Assembly (NCBI GenBank): GCA_016795485.1 | Contig: JAEUHM010000058.1 | Span: forward strand, 62,001-126,000 | Origin: Verrucomicrobiaceae bacterium | GTDB lineage: Bacteria > Verrucomicrobiota > Verrucomicrobiia > Verrucomicrobiales > Verrucomicrobiaceae | DNA length: 64,000 nt | Direction of reading: 5' to 3' | Shown: in pieces, positions 2,941 through 55,840 of the stretch | Layout of the letters: every line of letters begins with the position of its first letter | How positions within the stretch are numbered: position 1 is the first letter of the stretch | Translations under genes and position numbers: made by a program | Notes under the pieces: model-generated | Told to the model about the DNA's origin: nothing | The model's database searches: none | Seen by the model: only the letters and a program-made list of their open reading frames with translations

Positions 2941-3807
2941 ATGACTTCAGCGGATCTCCAGCGGTTCATCGACAGTGCCCGTCATCGGAGATGGACACGC
3001 GGACACGCGATGGATTTCACCGGAGCGTGCCAGGGCACAGCGGCTTGTTTGGCGTCTACGGATGGGGTTGTTTCCGCGGGTGACTATCAGGAGCGATTTA
3101 CGCTGATGAGTGCCATTAAGCCGTTTCTCCTTCTACACGTATTAGAGACGTATGGCGCTGCCCAAGTGGATGCGTGGGTGGATGACCGCCCCAGTGCTGA
3201 ACCTTACTATTCCTTGGAGCAGTTGATGGCAGACGGTGGGCGGCCACGCAATGCCATGATCAATAGCGGGGCGATGGTTCTCGCCTCTAAACTCGCAGGT
3301 GGTGATCCTGCCGCGCAAATGGAGAGCTTTCTGGCTTGGTTGAGCGCGTTTTGCCCCGAAGCTCACATCACTCTTCATCCTGAGGCTCTTGCTGAACTGA
3401 CAGAGCCTGACGCTGACATCACCAACCAAATGATTGCGATGGTCTTGAGGAGAACAAGACAGATCGATGATCATCATGCTGCGTTTGAGGCCTACTTTCG
3501 GCTCTGCTGCCTTCAGGGCAGCGTTCGAGATATTGCTTTGCTGGGTCTGGCGCTGGCTCGTTCTTCATCCATTTATCGCTCACGAGTCATCCACACCATG
3601 TCCCACAGCGGTCTTTACGAGGCTACTCCGCAGTGGATGGCCGCTACCAGTCTTCCTGCCAAGTCAGGAGTCAGCGGCGTTGTCTTTGCGCTGTTTCCAA
3701 ATGGCAGTTGTTTAGCCGCTTGCGACCCATTGCTTGATGACGGTGGTAATCCGGTGCTGCCGCAGAGACTTCTGCGGGCCGTTTCAGATTCAGGGCTCCT
3801 GAACTGA
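2941..3807 (+). CDS. glsA: Glutaminase
   Basis: The protein is 288 residues, slightly shorter than the usual 305-310 of bacterial glutaminases that hydrolyse L-glutamine to glutamate and ammonia. The serine-beta-lactamase-like fold of this family is recognised by MSAIKPFLLLHVLE, where S and K form the SxxK catalytic pair. It is also recognised by the substrate loop GGRPRNAMINSGAMVLAS, equivalent to GIPRNPxINAGAI in relatives. No signal peptide is visible, so the enzyme should be cytoplasmic. The ATG lies two bases after the stop of the M19-like gene, so translation is probably coupled. The C-terminal part is more divergent than the core, and the exact substrate could be another amide. Confidence 0.82.
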   Translation: MTSADLQRFIDSARHRRWTRGHAMDFTGACQGTAACLASTDGVVSAGDYQERFTLMSAIKPFLLLHVLETYGAAQVDAWVDDRPSAEPYYSLEQLMADGGRPRNAMINSGAMVLASKLAGGDPAAQMESFLAWLSAFCPEAHITLHPEALAELTEPDADITNQMIAMVLRRTRQIDDHHAAFEAYFRLCCLQGSVRDIALLGLALARSSSIYRSRVIHTMSHSGLYEATPQWMAATSLPAKSGVSGVVFALFPNGSCLAACDPLLDDGGNPVLPQRLLRAVSDSGLLN

Positions 3808-48300: not shown

Positions 48301-49227
48301 TCACGTCACATCCAAGCTCACCGGCGCGCTATCCCCGCCGAAGCCGCGGGAGTTCCTGCCCCGCACGTAGAACGTGTATTGATCTGGCGGCACGCTCGGC
48401 GTTAGCGCCGTGATCTCGAAGTTTCGCGTTAGGACATCCTCACCCACCAGCACGAACTCCGTCTCCCCAGGCGCGCGCATGAACACGTCGAAGCTCGTCG
48501 CACCCGAGCACGTATACTCCAGCTCCACCTCCCCAGGGGCAGGATTCGTAGCAGACTCGATCACCGCCGTATCCGGCACATTGCGCGGGCTCTCCGTCGG
48601 GATCGCGTCGATGATCTCACGCTCCAGCGTCCCTTCTGGGAACTGCGAGCGCCCCTGAGTCAGGGCAGACGTCACCATGTCCTCCATCTCACGCTGTTTC
48701 GCGTGCAGAGCACTCTCCTGAAGCTGGAAGTCCTGGTCCACCACCGGGATATTGTCGTCATTCGCCACCGCGGCATCCCGGAGACTTGTCATCCCCGCCA
48801 TCGTCAGCGTGGCATTCACCTGAGCCACCGTGAACGCCGCAGGCGGCGTGCCGATGAGTGGCAACTGTGCCCACAGGGCCAACGTCGCGTCCGCACGCGT
48901 CAGCGTCTCCTGGAAGCTCTCGTCCTTGGTTGGTAGTCGCTCCAGCCGCTCCATCACCATCGCATCCTTACGGAACGTATTGCGCGCCTGCTGGCCAAAG
49001 TCCACACACGCATCATGCAGACTCGCCACCGACGTTCGTCGCAAGGCACGCGCACCATCCAGTGTCGTTTTAGCCGTTATGTAAAGAGTGCGGATAGGAC
49101 CCGCACTGCCTATGAGAGCCTGCACTTGGGCAGGGGACTGTCCGTCTGGGCGGAAGCTAGGTATCTCGTCCATGGCCGCTTTTGTGTAGCGGAGTTGGGT
49201 CACAACGAAGTCGAACGTCGTAAGCAT
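48301..49227 (-). CDS. Hypothetical protein with C-terminal fibronectin-III-like domain
   Basis: About 308 residues. ATG 49227 is chosen over a TTG nine bases upstream. The first 200 residues look helical and charged (ALRRTSVASLHDACVDFGQQARNTF, QESALHAKQREMEDMVTSAL). The last 90 form a fibronectin-III-like sandwich (PGEVELEYTCSGATSFDVFMR, EFVLVGEDVLTRNFEITALTP, QYTFYVRGRNSRGFG). No signal peptide is visible, so it may be cytoplasmic. No enzyme motif is seen. The 21-bp palindrome array starts 70 bases upstream of its start codon, where its promoter should be. Confidence 0.65.
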   Translation of the reverse strand: MLTTFDFVVTQLRYTKAAMDEIPSFRPDGQSPAQVQALIGSAGPIRTLYITAKTTLDGARALRRTSVASLHDACVDFGQQARNTFRKDAMVMERLERLPTKDESFQETLTRADATLALWAQLPLIGTPPAAFTVAQVNATLTMAGMTSLRDAAVANDDNIPVVDQDFQLQESALHAKQREMEDMVTSALTQGRSQFPEGTLEREIIDAIPTESPRNVPDTAVIESATNPAPGEVELEYTCSGATSFDVFMRAPGETEFVLVGEDVLTRNFEITALTPSVPPDQYTFYVRGRNSRGFGGDSAPVSLDVT

Positions 49228-49260: not shown

Positions 49261-49503
49261 TCATTTGGGTGTGTTTGGGGGCTGGAAAGGCGGGTCGACC
49301 AGCAAAAATGGCCGGTCGACCGATAGAAATGGCACGTCGACCGCCCGCACAGGCAGGTCGACCAGGAAAAATGGCTCATCGACCGCCCAAAGAGGCACGT
49401 CGACCGGTGAAAATGGCAGGTCGACCAGGAAAAGTGGCCCGTCGACCAGTGGAAATGGCAGGTCGACCAGGAAAAGTGGCCCATCGACCGGTGGAAATGG
49501 CAT
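49261..49503 (-). CDS. Doubtful 80-residue repeat frame inside the 21-bp array
   Basis: An ATG at 49503 opens a frame of seven-residue repeats (FLVDLPF, PLVDGPL) ending at 49261, just before the next reverse gene. Because the array period is seven codons, several frames on both strands stay open, so openness alone is no evidence of coding. I list it because it starts with ATG, has a hydrophobic regular pattern and is in the same direction as the downstream gene. Confidence 0.2.
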   Translation of the reverse strand: MPFPPVDGPLFLVDLPFPLVDGPLFLVDLPFSPVDVPLWAVDEPFFLVDLPVRAVDVPFLSVDRPFLLVDPPFQPPNTPK

Positions 49504-49581
49504 GTCGACCAGCAGAACTCGCCCGTCGACCCGGTCGACCTGTCACCCTGAGCGGTCGACAAGCCAAAGCAAGCAGTCGAA
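49294..49581. repeat. 21-bp tandem array built on the palindrome GTCGAC
   Basis: GTCGAC or a one-base variant recurs exactly every 21 bp: 49294, 49315, 49336, 49357, 49378 (ATCGAC), 49399, 49420, 49441, 49462, 49483 (ATCGAC), 49504 and 49525. After a shift of 9 bp it continues at 49534, 49555 and 49576 (GTCGAA). The sequence between cores varies between an AGGAAAAGTGG type and a GTGGAAATGG type. They alternate in the middle of the array, giving a 42-bp higher-order period. Twenty-one bp equals two turns of B-DNA, so all palindromes face the same side. Confidence 0.95.
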
Positions 49582-49962
49582 CCAACAGGCCGACCGGGAT
49601 CACACCAACCACCAGATAAAATCCCACCATTCGGGTGGCGCGGTGACCTGCCCGGAGGTTTTGGCGACGTAGATCAGTCATCTTCGTAACCACACACCCA
49701 TGGTGGAATGGGCGCATTTAACGCCGGTATAAGGGAAATCCCAAAAAACGTCGAGAAAAAACCACCCGAACCGAAAAAAACCTCCCCCGCGACACCCCGG
49801 TTGGCGAAATCCGCCCCGAGCTACTGGCAACAGAAGGGGTGACAGCAGAATACCCCGATTCTGCTGTCACCCATTCCGTTGCCAACCCCACCCCCTCGAC
49901 CCCGCCCAGCAAAAAACACGCCCCCCAGCCCCCCAAAACCCAAAAAACCTCAAAAAGACAGG
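49582..49962. other. Gene-free, C/A-rich stretch before the NACHT gene end
   Basis: No gene is supported. The forward strand here is rich in C and A with runs such as CCCCCCAGCCCCCC and several A-runs. The only structure is the long inverted repeat at 49826-49883. It separates the 21-bp array from the 3' end of the reverse NACHT gene. Confidence 0.6.
49826..49883. repeat. 58-base inverted repeat (large hairpin)
   Basis: GGGTGACAGCAGAAT (49837-49851) is perfectly complementary to ATTCTGCTGTCACCC (49858-49872), with a six-base loop. The pairing resumes outside through GGCAAC (49826-49831) and GTTGCC (49878-49883), with two mismatches in between. It lies 80 bases beyond the stop of the reverse NACHT gene and could terminate or stabilise that transcript, or be the relic of a small mobile repeat. 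Confidence 0.85.
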
Positions 49963-52900
49963 CTACTGCTTCGGGAAGAAGACCCGGCACTGGGACTTCT
50001 TGTGCTCATTGAACCAATCGACATCCTCCTGGCTCAATCCGGTGCAGCCCTGGAGGCCGAGGAGTCCGAGCGACTTCAACTCCACTATCCCCGCCAGCGC
50101 CTCCTTGCCCTTGAGGCCGGTGCAGCCAATCAGCCAGAGGTGGTCCAGATTGTTGCACTGGGCCAAGGGGGCAGTGTCGGTGAGGCCGGTGCAGTTGCTG
50201 AGGGAGAGATCAGTGATTTCATCCAGTCGGGGCAGGCGCGCGAGGGCTGGGCTGGTGAGTTGGATGCAACCACGAAGGTAGAGAGCGCCTGTGAAGGCTT
50301 GATTGCCGCTCTTTTTGACTTCTTTGAGGGCGGAGGCAAGGGCGTCGATTCCTTCGTCAAGGCCTTCCGGACGCTCCAGCAGCTTGGGTGCGATGTGCCA
50401 GCCCTCATCATTTGAGCCTCTCCACTCTTCAAGACGGCAGGTGAGCCGTGCTAGCCAGAGTTTCTCCCACCAAGGGCGGCGGATGTCTTGGGTGAGTGCC
50501 AAGTCTTTGTCCCAGGCAAGTTTGACCAGAAGTTCTACACAGGCGTAAGGCAGCGGCGGCTTGTCTTCCTCGATGGGCAGCGGGTCGGGGCTGTGGAGGG
50601 TGGGGAAGAGATCGTGCAGTAAGGCGTCTCTTTGTTGTTGGTGCTGGCTGCCGCTGTGGGCTTCTAACAGGAGGATGAGGATTTCGTGCCAAAGGTGCTG
50701 CTTGGCGAGGTCGGGGAGGTCGCTGGGGCGAGCGGGGAAGGGGCTGCGGGGGTAGCGCTTCTGGTAGTCGGCCTTTTCTTGGTCGGTCCAGTGGCGGCGG
50801 GAGCGGAACTCGGCGAGGTCCATCTCGGCCTGGTAGTTGAGTTGGTCCCGCAGGTGACAGGCGGCAAAGAACTCCAGGAAGGAGAGGTGAGTGAAGGCAA
50901 AGAGGTCCTGCCCGGCCTGATCCACTCCTCTGGGGATGAGGAGGCCGGAGCGGCGGGCGATGTGGCTGAGCAACTCGTCCAATACGATGCGGGCCTCTCG
51001 CTTGTCAGAAAACAGGCCGCGCTGCTGGAGGTCTGCTACCCAAGGCTCTAGGAGATCGTGGAGGTCGGAGAGGGAGATGGTGATTTGGCCCTCTGATTTT
51101 GGATTTTGGATTTGGGATTTGGGATTGTGTTCGCCTAGCCGTTGCTGCTGCATGTGCATGGCGATGAGGCCGAGCATTTGCCAGCGTTGAGGGGTGGAGA
51201 AGGGGCAGTCGTGGCCCATTTGGTTGAGGGTGCGGTAGACGCGGTCGAGATCGCCCAGGTAAACATTGCCGATGGTCTCATACAGAGCAAAGCGCCCGTC
51301 TGGCAGGGGTTTGCCCGAGCGCTTGAGCATGTTCATCATGCAAAGCAGGTTCGGCACACGGGAGATGATGCGCACGCCATCATGCCCCCGCTTCCTCACC
51401 TCCCGGAGCAACTCCTTGGAGTGGTCCGTGCCATGCCGGTGCTTGAACCAACGCTGAGTGAACAAGTCCTGCCGCTGGTCGTTGAACGGGGCGAGGTAGT
51501 AGCCGTAAGCGATAGGAAAGTGTGCCGCTATTGTCGTCTCAGCCCCACTCTGCATTTTCTCTAGAATCGATTTTAAGTCCCTGTCTTCATAATCTCCCTG
51601 GAAGTCCAGGCGCTTGGAGTTGCCATCCACAAAACCCCTGGGCAACCTATCTTTCCATTTATCGAATAGGATATCCAATAATCGATCCTGTTCTTGTATT
51701 ACAACCAGACCAAGTTCCCGCCTATTCTTAGTCTTTGGCAAGACTAGCTTTTCCCTGAGCACCGCAACGTGACACTGAGCATCACGATACCCGATAACTC
51801 GTGAGGTAATGAGCCAACGGGCCTCGGCTGGAACGGCGAGCATCCCTTCATGGATGCACTCCACGACTTTTCTCCGCTTCTGGAGATCGCCGATCTCATC
51901 CAGGCCATCGACGAGGATGAAGAGGTTGGGATTGGTCTTCAGCAGCGTGAGGAACTCGTCTGGGTGCTCGCGGAAGGCTTCCAGGAGGGGCGGGGCGTTT
52001 TCTTCTCGGCGGTATTGGGTAAGGAGGGCGCGGACGAGGGTCTCCCAGGTCCAGGACTCGACATTGTCTTGATCCAAGAGCGGAACGATGTCGCGCAAGA
52101 TGAAGGGGATGGGCAGTAAGCCATTGAGAGCGGGCGCGCCGACGAATGGGCGGCCACTGGCGAGGTGGGCGATGAGCGCCTGAATGAGGGTGCTCTTGCC
52201 CATGCCGGGGTCGGCTAACAACACGGTGCGGCGGTGGCTGTCCTGGGAGATGAGCTGAAGCAACTCCTGGGTCTGGTGCTTGCGCTGGTAGTGGTCCGGG
52301 TCCGCTCGGAGGCCCTGCTCGTCCTCATCAATGTCCTCAGGCCGCAGATGGCGCTCCGAACAAGCCGGGTGGACGAAGATGTCCCAGATGTCAGGCGCGG
52401 TGGTGTCTGCGGCAGAGAAGTGGTCTAGCGCTAGTTCCTCGTAGCGGGAGAAGGCTTTCAACAAGGCGCGGCGGTAGGCGCTGATGCGGGCACGCTGTTG
52501 GGAGGGGTGATTGGCGTAGTCACCGGTGATGGGAGCTTTGTCGAACGAGATGAGGGCGGAGCGCACGGACCAGAAGTCTGGGGCATACTCCCGGAGCGTG
52601 ACGAGCGTGGCGGGTGTGCCTGCTACGACGAGGGTGCCCTGCATTTGCTTGGGCAGGTGATTGCGGTGGCGGTTGAGATAAACAAAGGCCTCCCGCCAAG
52701 GGCCATGGATGGGCTCAGATGGTGGTGCATCTGGCGATGGGACGGAGAGCCAAGTGAGGAAGTCTGCCTTGGATGCCTCATGCGAGGCAATGAGCGTCTC
52801 CACCAGATGGCTGGATGCAAAGAGGGGGTCGAAGTCGATGTAACGAGTGCTGCGGCCCTCTGGCACAAGGGCAGGGATGGCAAGCCGCACCTGATCAAGC

Positions 52901-53043
52901 GTCCACTCATCTGGCGCGATGAGCACAACAATGGAAAACTGGCTGGTGAGGGCCAGGTGGGTCTGGAGCAACTGCCACCCGATCTGCTCGGTGACGGGGA
53001 CGGGCGGCTGAGGCGTGGGGGCGATGGGCCTGGGTTTGCTCAC
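49963..53043 (-). CDS. NACHT-type STAND NTPase with C-terminal leucine-rich repeats (NLR-like)
   Basis: The protein has 1026 residues. An N-terminal region of about 265 residues has no recognised effector motif. NACHT follows, with Walker A LADPGMGKST (Lys283) and Walker B LFILVDGLDEIGD (residues 373-385), then sensor-like ARWLITSRVIGYRD. A long helical region leads to LRR-like repeats at the end (LDEITDLSLSNCTGLTDTAPL, LDHLWLIGCTGLKG, LKSLGLLGLQGCTGLS). This is the domain order of eukaryotic NLRs and of bacterial NACHT proteins, some of which block phages. Such a role here is inference from architecture. A heptanucleotide microsatellite lies in frame at 51095-51126. The gene follows another ATPase gene after 24 bases. 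Confidence 0.85.
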   Translation of the reverse strand: MSKPRPIAPTPQPPVPVTEQIGWQLLQTHLALTSQFSIVVLIAPDEWTLDQVRLAIPALVPEGRSTRYIDFDPLFASSHLVETLIASHEASKADFLTWLSVPSPDAPPSEPIHGPWREAFVYLNRHRNHLPKQMQGTLVVAGTPATLVTLREYAPDFWSVRSALISFDKAPITGDYANHPSQQRARISAYRRALLKAFSRYEELALDHFSAADTTAPDIWDIFVHPACSERHLRPEDIDEDEQGLRADPDHYQRKHQTQELLQLISQDSHRRTVLLADPGMGKSTLIQALIAHLASGRPFVGAPALNGLLPIPFILRDIVPLLDQDNVESWTWETLVRALLTQYRREENAPPLLEAFREHPDEFLTLLKTNPNLFILVDGLDEIGDLQKRRKVVECIHEGMLAVPAEARWLITSRVIGYRDAQCHVAVLREKLVLPKTKNRRELGLVVIQEQDRLLDILFDKWKDRLPRGFVDGNSKRLDFQGDYEDRDLKSILEKMQSGAETTIAAHFPIAYGYYLAPFNDQRQDLFTQRWFKHRHGTDHSKELLREVRKRGHDGVRIISRVPNLLCMMNMLKRSGKPLPDGRFALYETIGNVYLGDLDRVYRTLNQMGHDCPFSTPQRWQMLGLIAMHMQQQRLGEHNPKSQIQNPKSEGQITISLSDLHDLLEPWVADLQQRGLFSDKREARIVLDELLSHIARRSGLLIPRGVDQAGQDLFAFTHLSFLEFFAACHLRDQLNYQAEMDLAEFRSRRHWTDQEKADYQKRYPRSPFPARPSDLPDLAKQHLWHEILILLLEAHSGSQHQQQRDALLHDLFPTLHSPDPLPIEEDKPPLPYACVELLVKLAWDKDLALTQDIRRPWWEKLWLARLTCRLEEWRGSNDEGWHIAPKLLERPEGLDEGIDALASALKEVKKSGNQAFTGALYLRGCIQLTSPALARLPRLDEITDLSLSNCTGLTDTAPLAQCNNLDHLWLIGCTGLKGKEALAGIVELKSLGLLGLQGCTGLSQEDVDWFNEHKKSQCRVFFPKQ
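51095..51126. repeat. 7-bp microsatellite inside the NACHT gene
   Basis: GATTTTG GATTTTG GATTTGG GATTTGG GATT is a run of 4.6 heptanucleotides. On the coding strand it encodes NPKSQIQNPKS, which looks unlike the surrounding protein. The inserted length keeps the frame. Gain or loss of one unit would shift it. Confidence 0.85.
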
Positions 53044-53067
53044 AGATAGGAAGGCGAACGGGGAGGG

Positions 53068-54444
53068 CTAGGATGAAGGGGTGAAGCCGGAGACGGTGGA
53101 GTCTGGTTGGTCCGGGAGCTTTGTGATTTCCCAGAGCAGCGGATGAACATCGCACCACTCTACCGCGTTGGTGAGGAAGAAGGCGTAGCGGTTGTTGAAG
53201 AGATTGTTCAGCGTGTGGCGGGTTTCGTTTTTGCCGTCCGGGTAACGGCAGGCCCGGTCATGACTGATGCGGATGAGCAACTCAAGGGCAGTGTCAGACA
53301 GAACGCCAAAGGAGTTTTGGTGATTGGCGATGGCTGAGTTCACTTGGCGGCTGGTGACCAAGGGTGCGTCAGGCTCCGAGCGCGGCAGAGTGGCACGGAG
53401 CATGGTTTCCCGAAGGAGCAGGATAAAGTCACGCAAGTGTCCGCCGGAAGCTTTGATGAGCTTGTCCAGCAGCGGGTGCGGTTTGTTGCCTTTGGTGGGA
53501 CCAAAGAAGCGGTCCAGCCCTGCTTGGGTGAAGCGCCGAAGGGCGACCTCACGCATGAGTTTCATGCCGGGGTGGTAGGTAGGGCGTTTTGTGTCGGAGG
53601 TCCAGAGCTTGACACCATAGACGAGGCGGACATTGCCGGGACCAGGGCTGAGGAGCTTGATCCATGGCGGCATGGTGAGCACAACGTGATGGCCCGGCAC
53701 ACGCAGAGCTTCCTTGTGATTTGCGAGGATGGCCATGATGCTATCCGCTACCTCGCCTCCGTCTTGAGAGATGTCTTGGAGCTTCTCAAAGCTGTCGAGA
53801 ATGAAGACGGGTCTGTAAGTGGCGCCGAGCTTGGACATCGCTGCACTAGTAGCATCCGCAAAGAAGTTGTGGACTTGCTTCTCAATGACCTTGGGGAGGG
53901 TGGAGAGATGCGCTTCAAGCTGACTGATGAAGGACGGGTTTTCTTTGAGGATAACTTTGAAGTTGCCTGCATCGGTATCGAGATCAAATCCCTGAAGTTG
54001 GACGTGGGTTTCTTTGAGCCAGTGGATGAGTCTTTGCCAGTAGGATTGCTTTAGCGCCTCTAGTCCAATGAGGTTCTCCAACTGGTCGCTGTAAGCGCCA
54101 GCCATCTTGATGAGGAACATGTCTCTGGAGACCGGTAAGGTGGGGAGGAAGTAGTCTGAAGCGTCCGCCATGGCCACTAGGTAACCCTGACCCTCCAGTA
54201 GGGACTTTAGTCTCCGCAGTTCGGAGGATTTGCCGGAGCCTGAGAACCCGGAGATGAAGTTGAGGCTTCCAGAGTCGGAGATGGTGATCTCTCGGTGAAT
54301 GACGCTGACTTGATCGTGATCGGTGCCCTCGTGGATTGGCACGAAAAGATGATCGGGATCGTTTGGCTCGACAGACTTGAACGGGTCCAGGCGTGCGCTT
54401 AGCCAACGATGAAACGCTAGGTCGTCTGCGGGAAGGTTACTCAT
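53068..54444 (-). CDS. P-loop ATPase partner of the NACHT protein
   Basis: About 458 residues from ATG 54444; 14 more in-frame codons lie upstream but without a better start. Walker A is GFSGSGKS (residues 66-73) and Walker B is RPVFILDSFEKL, an AAA-like arrangement with the usual Asp but Ser-Phe-Glu after it. The middle and end are helical. The C-terminal part has ASGGHLRDFILLLRETMLRA, similar to sensor-2 or lid helices. No effector domain is recognised. It is the promoter-proximal gene of a two-gene reverse unit with the NACHT-LRR gene 24 bases downstream, so the two ATPases probably work together. Confidence 0.78.
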   Translation of the reverse strand: MSNLPADDLAFHRWLSARLDPFKSVEPNDPDHLFVPIHEGTDHDQVSVIHREITISDSGSLNFISGFSGSGKSSELRRLKSLLEGQGYLVAMADASDYFLPTLPVSRDMFLIKMAGAYSDQLENLIGLEALKQSYWQRLIHWLKETHVQLQGFDLDTDAGNFKVILKENPSFISQLEAHLSTLPKVIEKQVHNFFADATSAAMSKLGATYRPVFILDSFEKLQDISQDGGEVADSIMAILANHKEALRVPGHHVVLTMPPWIKLLSPGPGNVRLVYGVKLWTSDTKRPTYHPGMKLMREVALRRFTQAGLDRFFGPTKGNKPHPLLDKLIKASGGHLRDFILLLRETMLRATLPRSEPDAPLVTSRQVNSAIANHQNSFGVLSDTALELLIRISHDRACRYPDGKNETRHTLNNLFNNRYAFFLTNAVEWCDVHPLLWEITKLPDQPDSTVSGFTPSS

Positions 54445-54551
54445 TTGGGCAGAGGATAGACTGCAAGATAAGGATGTAAACCCCAAGGCCGAGAGTTGAG
54501 ACGGCGGCGAGTTTTCGAGCAGTGGAGGGGTGGAAGACGGAGGGTGGTGGG

Positions 54552-55613: not shown

Positions 55614-55638
55614 TGGGGGTGGGGGCGGTCGGACAATG

Positions 55639-55840
55639 AGACGGGGAGACGGGGAGACGGGGAGTGGTGGGGTGCTGGAGTGGTGGGGTGCTGGAGTGGT
55701 GGGGTGCTGGAGTGGTGGAGTGCTGGAGTGGTGGAGTGCTGGAGTGGTGGAGTGGTGGAGTGGTGGAGTGCTGGAGTGGTGGAGTGGTGGAGTGGTGGAG
55801 TGGTGGAGTGGTGGAGTGGTGGAGTGGTGGAGTGGTGGGG
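55639..55840. repeat. G-rich minisatellite (7- to 8-bp then 9-bp units)
   Basis: Three copies of AGACGGGG (55639-55663) are followed by about twenty 9-bp units of the type GGAGTGGTG, GGAGTGCTG and GGGGTGCTG (about 55661-55840). The array ends exactly at the stop codon of the reverse coiled-coil gene. Open frames in it on the forward strand are low-complexity artefacts. Confidence 0.9.

Follow-up and report, generated by a model that had tools for sequence, protein, structure and literature searches.

A GTCGAC palindrome array in a Verrucomicrobiaceae genome is one of a genome-wide class of tandem arrays with a fixed 21-bp period and unrelated sequences

Bacterial intergenic minisatellites, or VNTR loci, are head-to-tail non-coding arrays with units of tens of bases that change in number by whole units, and their unit length usually differs from locus to locus. 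Plasmid iterons are direct repeats of about 17-22 bp, which spaces their sites by roughly two turns of the helix. CRISPR arrays consist of short palindrome-bearing repeats, regularly spaced, with variable bases between them. Archaeal Borg elements carry numerous fast-evolving arrays, both within and between genes, that arise at many sites of a single genome; the units are perfect and A-rich, their lengths are varied, and of the intergenic lengths only 14-38% are multiples of three (PMC9879509). REP elements are palindromes of 20-40 bp, and with BIMEs they form dispersed intergenic palindromic repeats (PMC3733652).

We describe an array that shares features with each of these systems. It lies in a window of 64,000 nucleotides, the whole stretch of DNA from which the analysis started, and belongs to a genome-wide class of arrays with fixed unit length and unrelated sequences. 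The architecture is that of minisatellites, but unrelated units here are all exactly 21 bp long. The abundance of arrays recalls Borg elements, whereas the units here are degenerate and of fixed length. Recurrence about every two helical turns is common to this array and to iterons; however, no replication gene was identified beside the window array, the units vary by locus, and searches of phage, plasmid, and viral contigs found nothing similar to it. The regular spacing of palindrome-bearing repeats resembles CRISPR, but a 21-bp period is too short for repeat plus spacer, and no cas gene was recognised among the flanking proteins tested. Unlike REP and BIME elements, the arrays here are tandem and their palindromy is optional. 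Searches of open-access literature on repeat period and helical spacing turned up no account of such a class, an absence that is weak evidence.

The array occupies positions 49283-49581 of the window, with a TRF start at 49283 at period 42, and TRF detects it at periods 21, 42, and 63. Perfect copies of GTCGAC stand at 49294, 49315, 49336, 49357, 49399, 49420, 49441, 49462, 49504, 49525, 49534, and 49555, and one-base variants at 49378 (ATCGAC), 49483 (ATCGAC), and 49576 (GTCGAA). The step is 21 bp throughout, except for a single 9-bp step from 49525 to 49534, and elsewhere in the 64-kb window GTCGAC occurs just 8 more times. An earlier sequence-only reading had reported these 12 perfect copies, three variants, and one phase shift, all of which are confirmed; its geometric point that two-turn spacing places all palindromes on one face of the helix is likewise correct. 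A partial first unit, TGGAAAGGCGG (49283-49293, plus strand), keeps register with the later units. It is followed by 11 in-register units of 21 bp (49294-49524, plus strand; consensus GTCGACCAGCAAAAATGGCAC) in A/B alternation. Lag identity is 0.66 at lag 21 and 0.78 at lag 42, against 0.17-0.30 at lags 18-20 and 22-24. Since next-but-one units are closer to one another (identity 0.79) than neighbours are (0.66), the 42-bp super-period that had been proposed from the letters is real in this array. The invariant block is TCGACC, not GTCGAC: it is kept in all 11 in-register units, while the leading G of GTCGAC is altered in two of them and the bases between vary. The core of the units is GGTCGACC or CGTCGACC. 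With tandem head-to-tail units in the range of roughly 10-100 bp, the array falls within the usual definition of a minisatellite.

The single 9-bp step marks a probable inversion centre of the array. The sequence GTCGACC-C-GGTCGAC (49525-49539) has dyad symmetry about the base at 49532, and beyond this base the units resemble the inverted orientation, with two to three degenerate, putatively inverted units on the minus strand (49533-49581; GGTCGAC at 49533 and 49554, GTCGAA at 49576). An inverted-repeat search pairs arms at 49372-49407 and 49531-49566 that are 78% complementary. The inverted-unit score is 0.63 and the forward score 0.61, against a shuffle maximum of 0.62, a margin that by itself is weak.

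The surroundings of the array include several features of their own. On the gene-start side lies a reverse gene of 308 aa with no family assigned (48301-49227, minus strand). The sequence-only reading had put the array upstream of this gene, and it does begin 56 bp from the gene start. A paralogue, 57% identical, lies at G000:C7:84536-85171; upstream of it, positioned as in the window, is a G+T-rich array of 21/63-bp period (G000:C7:84259-84445; L078 5260-5446) in which no homology to the window array could be detected. The idea that a cis-regulatory array is retained along with the 308-aa gene family was considered and rejected, the paralogue having 21-bp repeats without detectable array homology. 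On the other side, the large inverted repeat mentioned in the sequence-only reading is present at 49825-49884, with 27-bp arms that are 93% complementary and, on the minus strand, a tail rich in T; it directly follows the reverse gene 49963-53043 and is probably the transcription terminator of that gene. An RNA family search returned only sub-threshold miRNA models, on this hairpin. The interval 49963-54486 (minus strand) encodes a 1026-aa NACHT/STAND NTPase with leucine-rich-like C-terminal repeats beside a 472-aa AAA_16 ATPase, a pair that resembles bacterial NLR-like genes, with a PADLOC match that is marginal only. Positions 55638-55838 hold 8-bp arrays, GAGACGGG and GGAGTGGT (22 copies), which are short repeats of a different kind.

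Homologous arrays occur elsewhere in the same genome. Through a weak match at C11, four arrays of a family here called A were found (C11:40322, C19:28460, C32:52735, and C47:84870), with 21-bp units in which sequences such as GGCGGTGAAAATGGCCGGTAC alternate with GGCGGCAAAAGTGGGCGGTAC. The window 42-mer agrees with the family A dimer at 29 of 42 positions, where the maximum over 3,000 shuffles was 25 (p below 1 in 3,000), and the two have in common the unit frame AAAATGGC-GGT and the 42-bp alternation. The family A core is GGTACGGC, which is non-palindromic, differs from the window core, and is absent from the window array units. Because its core is not GGTACGGC, we regard the window array, from sequence comparison, as a diverged relative of family A and not a plain member. 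In all four family A arrays there is an inversion centre, GGTACGGC-W-GCCGTACC (itself degenerate in C11 and C32), beyond which the units run in the opposite orientation. The window centre has the same one-base-spacer geometry, and its 9-bp step appears to be the counterpart of the family A centre, a correspondence drawn mainly from geometry. The 21-bp frame recurs at these four loci; of the GTCGAC array the genome holds no second example. Genes with 150-bp repeats (GSDGSFYGTT), which we take to be of the Gloeo_Verruco type, adjoin family A arrays at G000:C47:85317-87051 and C19:26353-28244; these genes were apparently duplicated together with the arrays.

We surveyed the genome for arrays of this kind with a TRF scan of 1.63 Mb, a quarter of the genome. 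About 1.48 Mb of this was covered as whole contigs, and some of the remaining stretches had been picked for containing matches; extrapolation uses the whole-contig figure only. The scan found about 25 arrays with a period of 21, 42, 63, or 84, mostly intergenic and most of them outside gene-like ORFs. Their units form about ten families without visible relation to one another. Families linked by descent comprise five loci (A), three (B), two (C), three (D), and two (E), and A-tracts are present in some families only. In the whole-contig part, roughly 19-20 arrays have periods of 15-60 bp, and for 13 of them the period is 21 or a multiple, with differing units, which extrapolates to roughly 55-60 period-21 arrays per genome. 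The other periods there were 22, 43, or 44 bp (four loci), 18 or 36 bp (one), and 24 bp (one short array within an ORF). Palindromes show no significant enrichment in the class as a whole (p 0.20 for those of at least 6 bp, 0.06 for at least 8 bp), and palindromy was rejected as a class signature. Since arrays of one length have unrelated sequences, it is the fixed length, and not the palindrome, that needs explaining. A second group of intergenic arrays, with a 22- or 44-bp period, occurs at G000:C46:64024, C46:184149, C24:56, and C2:50539, and some of its units look related.

The period is held with little deviation. In 25 arrays, almost all positions have a best local lag that is a multiple of 21; the exceptions are C3:75067, where 1 bp is deleted, and the edge of C4:47740, where the lag is 91. 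The trimmed arrays, 289 units in all, contain at least 297 substitutions and zero indels, where the rate in homologous flanks (14 gap openings per 227 mismatches) leads one to expect 18; because the period finder that picked the arrays is biased towards clean ones, this depletion is somewhat overstated. Array-to-array alignments, with 6 gap openings per 501 mismatches, provide a more cautious figure: a deficit of about five-fold relative to the flanks.

Arrays also differ between loci that are otherwise alike. At C4:222860 and C41:49864 the left flanks are 87% identical over 1,002 bp and the right flanks 98% over 164 bp, yet the arrays between them, of 340 and 351 bp, show no relation to each other, although each repeats at 21 bp. 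The C41:49864 array is 82% identical to that at C43:85735, and the C4:222860 array has a 95% copy at C49:212395. In G161, a relative from another genus, two homologous contigs with a common flank carry 9 and 16 family A units, a whole-unit copy-number change of the kind that characterises minisatellites, and then there is an abrupt switch to a different 21-bp unit. An abrupt unit change at constant period is also found at C18:180779. The indel deficit and these abrupt changes at constant period argue that the length is under constraint. Arrays related to family B occur in G009, G048, and G153. In two other relatives, covered over 400 kb each, arrays of this kind with at least three copies were absent outside probable genes; how far the class extends across the order is known from similarity matches only. 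A scan of genome contigs for a 21-bp GTCGACC pattern yielded 55 loci, and those inspected were for the most part repeats within coding sequence (coiled-coil heptads of the type KRFEQVD, for example) or short arrays of no relation; a Chitinophagales MAG (L069) contained one GGTCGACC array. Loci of this pattern elsewhere are taken as convergence. The L069 array, at about 3091-3309, has 21-bp units GTCGACCTACCAAAACAGTAG with interrupting 22-bp steps and is possibly an independent case.

A period of 21 bp is divisible by three, and the sequence-only reading had offered a seven-codon repeat peptide as one alternative. Such arrays would encode short proteins of seven-residue repeats (xKMAGRP in the window frame, GTAVKMA in family A), and each array of the class has at least one open frame. 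Several frames are open across the window array because any 21-bp unit free of stops stays open when repeated. We scored coding potential with a periodic coding model of fourth order, for which 300-aa ORFs from this genome served as training set; the median is 0.040 for true gene windows and 0.022 for intergenic windows, the latter taken as the best of six frames. The family A arrays at C11, C32, and C47 reach a coding-like 0.05-0.08 in the GTAVKMA frame, with a 107-aa ORF at C11, so that a coding history is possible for that family. The best frame of the window array, however, reaches only -0.006 and has a stop inside, and the arrays as a class score like intergenic DNA. Synonymous excess in the six frames of the window array and 23 others does not go beyond expectation from the 144 frames tested; no indel of three or six bases occurs among the 289 units; the window ORFs tested match nothing in Pfam or NCBIfam; the best frame of one G161 copy contains stops; and the 1-bp deletion at C3:75067 also speaks against a reading frame. 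The window array thus scores as non-coding, and we consider heptad coding improbable as the origin of the period. We find still less probable a sequence-specific platform, on which a dimeric regulator would bind each GTCGAC on one helix face and control the 308-aa gene. The invariance of TCGACC amid varying columns and the placement just upstream of that gene are what such a platform would predict, but the array is the sole GTCGAC array in the genome, the core is different and non-palindromic in all four homologous arrays, palindromes are not significantly enriched in the class, and the paralogue has another array upstream. The sequence-only reading's binding platform for a dimeric protein is not supported by these comparisons.

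With moderate confidence, we favour a non-coding intergenic minisatellite of a genome-wide class, with whole-unit turnover and a length constrained whatever the unit sequence, two helical turns being the putative cause. It draws on what can be read from the DNA: the period lock, the near-absence of indels, turnover by whole units, the differing arrays in homologous flanks, homology to the GGTACGGC family, and the lack of a coding signature. The units, often as 42-bp dimers, would be gained and lost through slippage or unequal recombination, and arrays would be swapped between loci as modules. Coding would allow steps of 18 or 24 as well, and none was seen in these arrays, which makes two turns of B-DNA the natural alternative: at 21 bp every unit would keep the same helical face. 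Helical phasing is accordingly the likeliest reason that we can offer for the length, and the array, if functional, may be phased structural DNA (a bending, supercoil, or nucleoid-protein site) and not a GTCGAC operator. The strongest rival is passive inheritance of an old period, whereby one or a few 21-bp arrays would be ancestral to all of them, with the sequence overwritten by substitutions and whole-unit turnover keeping a period that is not selected. Families linked by descent, array types common to loci with different flanks, and the 42-bp dimer as the recent duplication unit in the window array all fit this neutral account; the five-fold rarity of indels relative to the flanks of the same elements does not, and substitution alone would hardly produce the abrupt changes to unrelated units at C18:180779 and in G161. 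We judge it rather unlikely. Only tentatively do we extend the favoured minisatellite reading to a 21-bp ruler, a length-measuring process or constraint that would create and maintain two-turn intergenic arrays of any sequence and swap whole arrays between loci.

These arrays carry a caution, in that a striking palindrome array should not be taken for an operator until its sibling arrays are known. The two loci whose flanks are homologous but whose arrays differ provide a natural experiment that is already in place. The unit length of minisatellites is usually regarded as a historical accident; one exact length in unrelated intergenic arrays, with almost no indels and free of coding constraint, allows the question whether the helical phase of DNA selects the length of bacterial repeats.
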